DNA from: Rhodothalassiaceae bacterium
Lineage (GTDB): Bacteria > Pseudomonadota > Alphaproteobacteria > Sphingomonadales > Rhodothalassiaceae
DNA length: 64,000 nt
Direction: 5' to 3'
Assembly: GCA_026004935.1 (NCBI GenBank)
Contig: BPKC01000001.1
Span: 2,827,381-2,891,380, forward strand
In this document: positions 39,798 to 41,300 of the stretch, piece by piece
Layout: each line of letters begins with the position of its first letter
How positions within the stretch are numbered: the first letter of the stretch is position 1
Position numbers and translations under genes: made by a program
The notes under the pieces: model-generated
The model's database searches: none
Told to the model about the DNA's origin: nothing
Seen by the model: the letters and a program-made list of their open reading frames with translations, nothing else

Positions 39798-40727
39798 TCA
39801 CGGGCTCGTTGAACACTGGTCCTTAAGAAGGCCGGTCGCGAGGCCGGGAATATCATGATGTTTCGGCGGAACGCCGCCGGCGGCGAAGAACTGAGCGTCT
39901 GGCACGGCTTTCAGAATCGCCTCGATGAAGGGCCTTTGTTCCTCCACAAACGGCACCACTTGGTCCTGCGGGTCACTTACGAATATCATTCTCTTTGGTG
40001 CATGCCTGATTATGTCTTCCAAATGATCGATCGGATTGTAGGGAGGATAGACGCCCGCTTTTGTCAGCCGATCGTAATAGGGGTCCCTGTTGCGCGCAAA
40101 GGGAGTTGAGATGAAGATTGCGCACGCAATGTCGCTGCGATCCTGAATGAGCCTGGCCAACACGACACCCGCCCATGATTCCGCCGAGATGCAGAGAGTT
40201 TTTCGCCCGTATCGCGTCTTGAGACGATCGAGCGCCCGGTGAAGAATTTCCGGAAACCGAACCGCGTCACCGATCGCCCCATCGGACCCGAAGGCCCCCG
40301 GCAGCGTCAGAAATACGTATGGCAGCTTCCAGTCCTGACGATCCTTTGACACCTGGCGCAGAAGCCCGCGTGGCGTCAGCTGCTTGAAATCCTCATTCAC
40401 GTTCCAGCTGCCGTCGTCGTGCAGCGCCACGGTTCCGGAAACCGGATAGAGGCGCACCGGAAGGCAACCGCCGCCGGGCGCCATCGGGAGGGCGGCCCAG
40501 CCAGGGGCAACAAGGCGGTAGCGCCGGCCGTCATCCAGTTCCACCTTCAGAAAGTCATCAGGTGCGAGAAAGAAGGAAAGCGCGGGTCGCGTCCAGAGAA
40601 CCTTGCGGACGAACACCTCGATTACTTCTCTCCCGGGAACAAACAAGACGACTCCGACGACGCAAATCCCGAGAACGAGGAGGGTGCCGAAGGTCACGCG
40701 GCGCACGGTGTTGCGGGGCTGCGTCAT
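39798..40727 (-). CDS. Membrane-anchored alpha/beta-hydrolase-like protein of unknown function
   Basis: A 309-aa protein I cannot assign. Residues about 11-30 (FGTLLVLGICVVGVVLF) are one N-terminal membrane helix, so the rest should face the periplasm. A hydrolase-like core is suggested by LTLPGAFGSDGA, a nucleophile-elbow-like ISAESWAGVVLA, an acid in VSDPQDQVVP and a late His pair in PPKHHDIPG, in the order expected for a Ser-Asp-His triad. The serine-elbow is not the textbook GxSxG, so enzymatic activity is only inferred. It lies 84 bases downstream of the double-glycine-leader gene, with hairpins between, and its composition is lower in GC than that of the leg genes on both sides. Confidence 0.7.
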   Translation of the reverse strand: MTQPRNTVRRVTFGTLLVLGICVVGVVLFVPGREVIEVFVRKVLWTRPALSFFLAPDDFLKVELDDGRRYRLVAPGWAALPMAPGGGCLPVRLYPVSGTVALHDDGSWNVNEDFKQLTPRGLLRQVSKDRQDWKLPYVFLTLPGAFGSDGAIGDAVRFPEILHRALDRLKTRYGRKTLCISAESWAGVVLARLIQDRSDIACAIFISTPFARNRDPYYDRLTKAGVYPPYNPIDHLEDIIRHAPKRMIFVSDPQDQVVPFVEEQRPFIEAILKAVPDAQFFAAGGVPPKHHDIPGLATGLLKDQCSTSP

Positions 40728-40751
40728 GACACTGCCTGTCCTGTCCAGCCT

Positions 40752-40797
40752 CCTTCCGGGCAGGAAGGTCGGGAGGGAGAGGAGGGCAACCCTCCTC
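40752..40797 (-). promoter_or_regulatory. Two tandem hairpins between the small leader-type gene and the hydrolase gene
   Basis: GAGGAGGG at 40779-40786 pairs with CCCTCCTC at 40790-40797 (8 bp, 3-base loop). CCTTCC at 40752-40757 pairs with GGAAGG at 40763-40768. There is no U-run after either on the minus strand. Such hairpins between a small abundant product and its downstream gene can stabilise or attenuate the message. Confidence 0.5.
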
Positions 40798-40811
40798 CCC
40801 CATCCTCGACT

Positions 40812-41084
40812 TCAATTGGGCACGCACTCGACCGTCACGGTTCCGCCGCCGATATCGATTCCTCCGGCTCCACCCTTGCCGGCAACATAGGTTACCTTGG
40901 GATGGGTGCCCTCGGGGCAGCTCACGTGAACCTGGCCACCACCCGGCAGGGTCACGGTGACGGTCCCCCCGCTATTCCCCTCGCCCCCGAACACGAAAGG
41001 GAGCTCCTTCTCGTCCAGCTCTCGAACGAACGGTTCCACCTTGGGCCGGTCCAGTGCCGGAACTTGAGGGATGATGCCAAGCAT
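40812..41084 (-). CDS. Small glycine-rich protein with a double-glycine-type leader
   Basis: A 90-aa protein I do not recognise. The first part is charged and ends in RELDEKELPFVFGG (GG at residues 33-34), closely resembling the LDxxELxxVxGG cleavage region of double-glycine leader peptides. The remainder (35-90) is rich in Gly, Val and Thr, has the repeat GGTVTV twice, and has two cysteines (56 and 87). Start 41084 follows a GGGAGAG site. It could be a processed secreted peptide or a RiPP-like precursor; no ABC peptidase or modification enzyme is visible next to it, so this is a hypothesis. A membrane hydrolase-like gene lies directly downstream. Confidence 0.62.
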   Translation of the reverse strand: MLGIIPQVPALDRPKVEPFVRELDEKELPFVFGGEGNSGGTVTVTLPGGGQVHVSCPEGTHPKVTYVAGKGGAGGIDIGGGTVTVECVPN

Positions 41085-41265
41085 CGCTTCTCTCCCATCA
41101 TTCAAGGCTGCCGACGCGTCGGGAAAGGACGAAGGAGGGCGGCGTTCACGCGCTGGCAGAGATCCCCCGGCGATCTGCGGCGGGAGGCCTGCCGCGCCGG
41201 CCACGCCGCGTCTCCGCCCGCCGTCCCCTCCCGAACGGCCCGGCGACCCCCGCCGGGCACTCGCC

Positions 41266-41300
41266 TCATTACCCCCCCCCCCTCTGATTGAGAAAGTCAA
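41266..41300 (-). promoter_or_regulatory. Promoter-like hexamers separated by an 11-base poly-G tract
   Basis: On the minus strand TTGACT (41300-41295) is followed by 23 bases and then TAATGA (41271-41266). Eleven of those bases are an uninterrupted G run (41282-41272). The spacing is too long for a normal promoter, but loss of about six G would give 17. It lies 180 bases upstream of the small leader-type gene. Homopolymers in promoter spacers are known phase-variation devices. Confidence 0.4.

Follow-up and report, generated by a model that had tools for sequence, protein, structure and literature searches.

The stretch of DNA analysed here (the window) comprises 64 kb of a 2.9-Mb alphaproteobacterial genome (G000), from base 2827381 to base 2891380 of contig 1. 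Within it, a peptide precursor gene and the gene for a hydrolase form a small island in a legionaminic acid (leg) locus (Table 1). The island sits between legC-like and legI-like genes, at the meeting point of two convergent half-loci. The plus-strand half encodes a legB-like epimerase and the legC-like aminotransferase, and the minus-strand half carries legI together with the genes upstream of it. The GC content is 0.57-0.64 across most of the island versus about 0.70-0.75 in the flanks. The initial annotation of this DNA had placed the pair between legC and legI and had described it as lower in GC than the leg genes, and both statements are borne out by the gene order at the junction and by these values. 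In two relatives of the same family with readable leg loci (G004 and G002), the island is absent from the junction, which is occupied by a PIG-L/NeuC-like pair.

Table 1. Features of the island and of its upstream region, in window positions.
Feature	Position	Strand	Basis or details
90-aa double-glycine precursor gene	40812..41084	minus	ORF, Shine-Dalgarno, coding score, motif rarity, sibling leader class
Predicted leader of the 90-aa precursor	40983-41084	minus	34 aa
Predicted core of the 90-aa precursor	40815-40982	minus	56 aa; Cys22 and Cys53 of the core
Shine-Dalgarno GGGAGAG	41090..41096	minus	sequence
Conserved 5' element, also present upstream of the three locus-A precursors	41215..41282	minus	blastn, genome search, alignment
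-35-like box TTGACT	41295..41300	minus	alignment of five upstream regions
Poly-G tract of 11	41272..41282	minus	sole homopolymer of at least 8 in the 64-kb window
-10-like box TAATGA (TAAT invariant, five copies)	41266..41271	minus	alignment
8-bp hairpin/palindrome GCCCGGCG-GGGGT-CGCCGGGC	41238..41258	minus	two compensated pairs among five copies
309-aa alpha/beta hydrolase, N-terminal TM segment, Ser184-Asp252-His291	39798..40727	minus	invariant residues, profiles, fold matches
Two strong hairpins between the peptide and hydrolase genes, no T-run	40753..40810	minus	folding

The likely start of the small frame is ATG 41084, with GGGAGAG just upstream, since the codon-usage score is positive from this codon on (+0.15 bits per codon for the whole 90-codon frame and +0.38 for its leader part) and drops to -0.44 bits per codon in the extension to TTG 41300, which is thus disfavoured. 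Substrates of C39 peptidases are required to carry GG, GA or GS at positions -2/-1 and hydrophobic residues at -4, -7 and -12 (PMC10885120). The window leader ends in L-DEK-E-L-PF-V-F-G-G, with hydrophobic residues at -12, -7 and -4, and L-12, E-8, L-7, V-4 and GG all fit the double-glycine consensus. In six frames of first-order Markov sequence of matching composition, 0.1 occurrences of this leader motif are expected per 64 kb; two were observed, including the window gene. The 56-residue core is beta-rich, with strands in the core only, in a predicted structure (an unaligned model of modest confidence) for which no fold match was found in the PDB; its calculated average mass is 5276.8 in the reduced state and lower by about 2 with a disulfide. 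The 90-aa frame, GG site, repeated GGTVTV and two cysteines listed in the initial annotation are all present, and its double-glycine reading is strongly supported by the leader consensus, the Shine-Dalgarno sequence, the coding signal and the sibling leaders described below. Judged by its sequence, the 90-aa frame is a genuine double-glycine precursor.

Searches of viral contigs, plasmids, 60 relatives and 385 class members yielded no real homologue of the 90-aa protein. Among the weak hits that were examined, four proved to be DnaJ-family regions and one an unrelated frame. The core (window 40815-40970) faintly resembles the C-terminal beta domain of DnaJ-family proteins (best 24 bits, single genomes); no Pfam DnaJ match is listed for the peptide. 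Profile scans with Pfam, NCBIfam and PADLOC gave nothing above cut-off, and a match to an NHLP or Nif11 leader profile, which the initial annotation had suggested as a check, was not found.

The genome-wide statements made here derive from pattern and profile searches of the genome and of selected stretches. Peptidase_C39 domains were located by profile search at two places in the genome. One of them, at a distance of 0.55 Mb from the window gene, encodes a 777-aa ABC exporter (L020:8676-11009) beside three further precursors (locus A). Its C39, ABC membrane and ATPase domains all score above the Pfam cut-offs, and the Cys, His and Asp motifs of C39 are visible by eye in the sequence. The leaders of the locus-A precursors (IRELTREELEEVKGG, IRELTMEECEEVKGG and IRELTVEEIDWVSGA) are of the same REL...E...G[GA] type as the window leader, and two of the three precursors exceed the cut-off of the class IIb bacteriocin model TIGR03949, to which the window peptide has no match. 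The second place is a TOMM cluster with an NHLP precursor (L021, G000:C1:1299501-1319400). This cluster encodes the NHLP-leader precursor (TIGR03793 above cut-off), a SagD/YcaO-type protein, an HlyD-like protein and the C39 domain. The argument that no exporter accompanies the peptide and that the system would hence be new consequently loses its ground: the genome holds a C39 ABC exporter beside sibling precursors as well as the C39 domain of the TOMM cluster.

A DNA pattern for the sibling leaders (REL-x3-[ED]-x5-G[GA]) occurs at seven sites of the genome including the window gene, all in the N-terminal part of short frames. Outside the window and locus A, the sites are L026, L072 and L073a, each with an ATP-grasp gene of the graspetide-ligase kind nearby, for which TIGR04187 is the best model (E 6e-11 to 3e-59, with scores under the curated cut-off). 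The loose pattern taken alone is not rare, since its reversed version was matched five times. None of four simulated genomes contained the full motif, which additionally demands the hydrophobic positions and a stop codon 15-90 residues on. The precursor set amounts to nine and includes L073b and L081, in both of which REL varies. Leaders of 34 residues are common to the window gene, L026, L020a and L020c. At least five further GG precursors lie outside the window and locus A, all adjoining graspetide-type ATP-grasp genes. The 777-aa protein is the likely shared exporter for about nine dispersed precursors.

The graspetide-like loci, with ATP-grasp genes of the TIGR04187 kind, occupy low-GC islands (L073:7406-10388, L072:7169-8221, L026:8614-9918 and L081:1641-3039), and the ATP-grasp frame of L072 appears broken. 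One match of the GG pattern (L027) runs antisense within a TonB-receptor-like gene and was discarded. The congener G001 harbors two GG-leader precursors (L063:500-775 and L064:3811-4065), each near a small membrane-protein frame; of these, the L063 precursor bears the poly-G element described next.

Upstream of the window gene, positions 41282-41215 share 80-81% identity over 70 bp with the DNA upstream of each locus-A precursor (blastn), and the locus-A upstream DNA in turn matches a region that precedes a GG precursor of the congener. Across the genome, the 70-bp element has four full copies, every one before a GG precursor, plus one 30-bp partial match; a degenerate copy is present at L026. 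The alignment reveals a common layout of TTGAC[AT], a short spacer, poly-G, TAAT and an 8-bp hairpin. The tract measures G11 in the window, G14, G11 and G13 in locus A and G9 in the congener, lengths of 9-14 G being prone to sequencing error. Between two locus-A upstream regions of about 300 bp, the differences are two substitutions, two gaps of one base each and a tract that is three G's longer in one of them (G14 versus G11). Read as a promoter, the element has spacers to TA of 19-23 bp versus the usual 17, and its -10 match is weak.

A minimal pattern (TTGAC, at least 8 G and TAAT) was searched in 60 genomes. Five matches were obtained in this genome and one in the congener, all preceding GG precursors, and one in another genome; the reversed pattern gave none in the 60 genomes. 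The fifth match, at L081 (TTGACG, ten bases, G11 and TAGAGT), marks a previously unrecognised GG precursor locus, in which an 83-aa precursor with the leader FRTLSSQEINQIGG is followed by an ATP-grasp gene. The signature, learned on one set of genes, thus predicted a previously unrecognised member. The sole match beyond the genus (L079, G038:C3:9380) stands before a 107-aa membrane-protein-like frame and is probably unrelated. Another possible slippage promoter is found upstream of the L072 precursor (about 8240, minus strand), where TTGACA and TATGAG flank a C7T6 double homopolymer.

The hydrolase gene begins 84 nt downstream of the peptide gene. The two hairpins in between, already noted in the initial annotation, are confirmed by folding (-47.9 kcal/mol, z -2.5) and have no T-run terminator. 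Likewise, the description of the downstream product as a membrane-anchored protein with a Ser-Asp-His order agrees with its N-terminal hydrophobic segment and with Ser184, Asp252 and His291, which are invariant across six hydrolase relatives. By itself, the 309-aa protein stays under the Pfam cut-offs; family profiles match its relatives and reach cinnamoyl and chlorogenic-acid esterases, and fold matches of the model, which has low to modest confidence, are esterases and peptidases. On these residues, profiles and predicted fold, the 309-aa protein is a membrane-anchored alpha/beta hydrolase. Given its one N-terminal hydrophobic helix, the hydrolase domain should lie in the periplasm, so self-protection or late tailoring of the peptide is more plausible than leader removal. 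A function as the processing enzyme, as proposed in the initial annotation, is also disfavoured by the presence of a C39 exporter. A scan of the genome contigs for the hydrolase returned only the congener and one chance hit; the copy in the congener (G001) lies at a contig end, where its neighborhood is cut off. Hydrolase relatives at L017:5032-8648 and L016:5810-9560 adjoin a DinG-like helicase gene in two distant genomes, G001 and G474, so the hydrolase may originally have belonged to a different locus.

Accounts of peptide bacteriocins usually feature a single locus with its own exporter and immunity gene. The window peptide shares with class II microcins and their C39 exporters (colicin V/CvaB; PMC9746304) the GG leader consensus, a small two-cysteine core and the presence of a C39-ABC exporter in the genome, and sibling precursors match the class IIb bacteriocin model. 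Unlike in class II microcins, the window precursor is 0.55 Mb from the exporter and its core matches no family. Moreover, no small membrane immunity protein in the range known for class II microcins (51-216 aa; PMC9746304) lies beside it; the neighbor is the 309-aa hydrolase with one TM segment. In C39 exporter systems of the LahT type, one cluster encodes as many as nine precursors, whose leaders are conserved and whose cores are diverse (PMC10885120). Here as well, leaders are similar and cores unlike among several precursors that probably depend on one exporter, but these precursors are dispersed and represent more than one peptide class. As in graspetide loci (MvdC/MvdD, TIGR04187 ligases), ligase genes of this kind adjoin the related-leader siblings L026, L072, L073 and L081, whereas no ATP-grasp gene is found at the window locus.

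Two neisserial systems are instructive with respect to the tracts. The nap island of Neisseria encodes GG-leader peptides that are likely phase variable via tracts inside reading frames (PMC11798529). It resembles the present case in its GG-leader bacteriocin-like peptides, its low-GC, acquired-looking island and its homopolymer tracts; here, however, they are found at several loci and lie in a promoter-like spacer ahead of the reading frame. In the literature searched, nap is the only example of phase variation of GG-leader peptides. In the porA promoter of Neisseria meningitidis, a poly-G tract between -35 and -10 sets expression, with 11G giving high, 10G lower and 9G nearly no expression (PMC3639595). 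The five aligned copies of TTGAC[AT]-polyG-TAAT would likewise place poly-G between -35 and -10 boxes, albeit with a weak -10 box. While porA is a single gene for an outer-membrane protein, the putative switches found here precede several peptide precursors. By this analogy, poly-G could switch precursor expression.

Since phase-variable porA has the same arrangement of poly-G between two promoter boxes, the best reading is a peptide repertoire that would be expressed stochastically and served by an exporter acting in trans. In this view, the small gene would specify a class II microcin/bacteriocin- or RiPP-type peptide destined for secretion. The C39-peptidase ABC exporter encoded 0.55 Mb away would cut the 90-aa precursor after GG and export the peptide in trans. 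Transcription would start from the promoter-like element with poly-G inside its -35/-10 spacer, and slippage of the tract would alter spacer length and thus promoter strength, resulting in phase variation. The state of an individual precursor gene may depend on the tract in front of it, and cells would then differ at random in the part of the repertoire that they produce. The peptide gene and the alpha/beta hydrolase gene downstream of it probably share one transcript. Taken as a whole, this scheme of an exported microcin-, bacteriocin- or RiPP-type peptide with C39 export in trans, poly-G promoter switching and probable co-transcription of the hydrolase is considered likely.

Alternatively, the GG-leader substrate might be genuine and the G tract a fixed part of a promoter, a regulator-binding site or a 5' RNA element, inherited through duplication or spread of the precursor genes. 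The hairpin with compensated pairs right after TAAT suggests an operator or RNA element, and the poor -10 box and long spacers would also be in line with a fixed tract. Yet, near-identical upstream regions differ most in the length of the tract, and L081 retains TTGAC and poly-G though its remaining upstream DNA is unlike; a fixed tract is considered rather unlikely. It is far less probable still that the small frame is untranslated, as the initial annotation had allowed for, and that its GG motif arose by chance in GC-rich sequence. The lack of any homologue found for the core would fit such a frame, but the Shine-Dalgarno sequence, the coding signal from the ATG and the leader motif point the other way, as does a 5' element common only to the window gene and other precursors.

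For the hydrolase, two possibilities are considered. The enzyme may act on the peptide, either as an immunity factor or by maturing it in the periplasm, for which the chances appear close to balanced. It is encoded by the next gene downstream on the same strand, shares the low GC with the peptide gene, and no separate minus-strand promoter or terminator is seen between the two genes; furthermore, other precursors of the genome precede small membrane proteins or ATP-grasp enzymes. Against this, known class II microcin immunity proteins are smaller, as described above, and the hydrolase relatives occur without GG peptides: the co-occurrence of both families proposed as a check in the initial annotation was negative in all readable cases (G205, G474, Azospirillum, Agrobacterium and Bosea). 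The link between hydrolase and peptide is therefore one of adjacency and composition, and assigning the enzyme to immunity, tailoring or neither amounts to a guess. Conceivably, it is a passenger or an enzyme of the sugar locus unrelated to the peptide, for example an esterase of legionaminic-acid glycans. Its position inside the leg locus and the esterases among its profile and fold matches lend this some plausibility, but the leg loci of G004 and G002 do without the island. In addition, a leg-specific esterase is disfavoured because G001, an 89%-complete genome, has the hydrolase family without a legI match. The passenger or sugar-locus role is thus a possibility of lesser weight.

The window peptide adds a new member to a known type of precursor; a dispersed repertoire preceded by poly-G is, as far as the literature searched shows, a form not described before. 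The meaning of the upstream element becomes visible only on comparing sibling loci, and the exporter lies outside the window. Since a promoter-like signature alone predicted an unrecognised precursor gene, this signature is a practical finder of orphan precursors. Tentatively, and with some doubt, the genome of this environmental alphaproteobacterium may be viewed as encoding a dispersed repertoire of bacteriocin-like and graspetide-type peptides served by one C39 exporter, several of them on their own poly-G switch and made in random combinations by clonal cells, with the window peptide and its hydrolase partner as an undescribed kind of member. If the tracts do switch, this would provide a testable model of bet-hedging, in which costly weapons or signals are made in random combinations within a clone.
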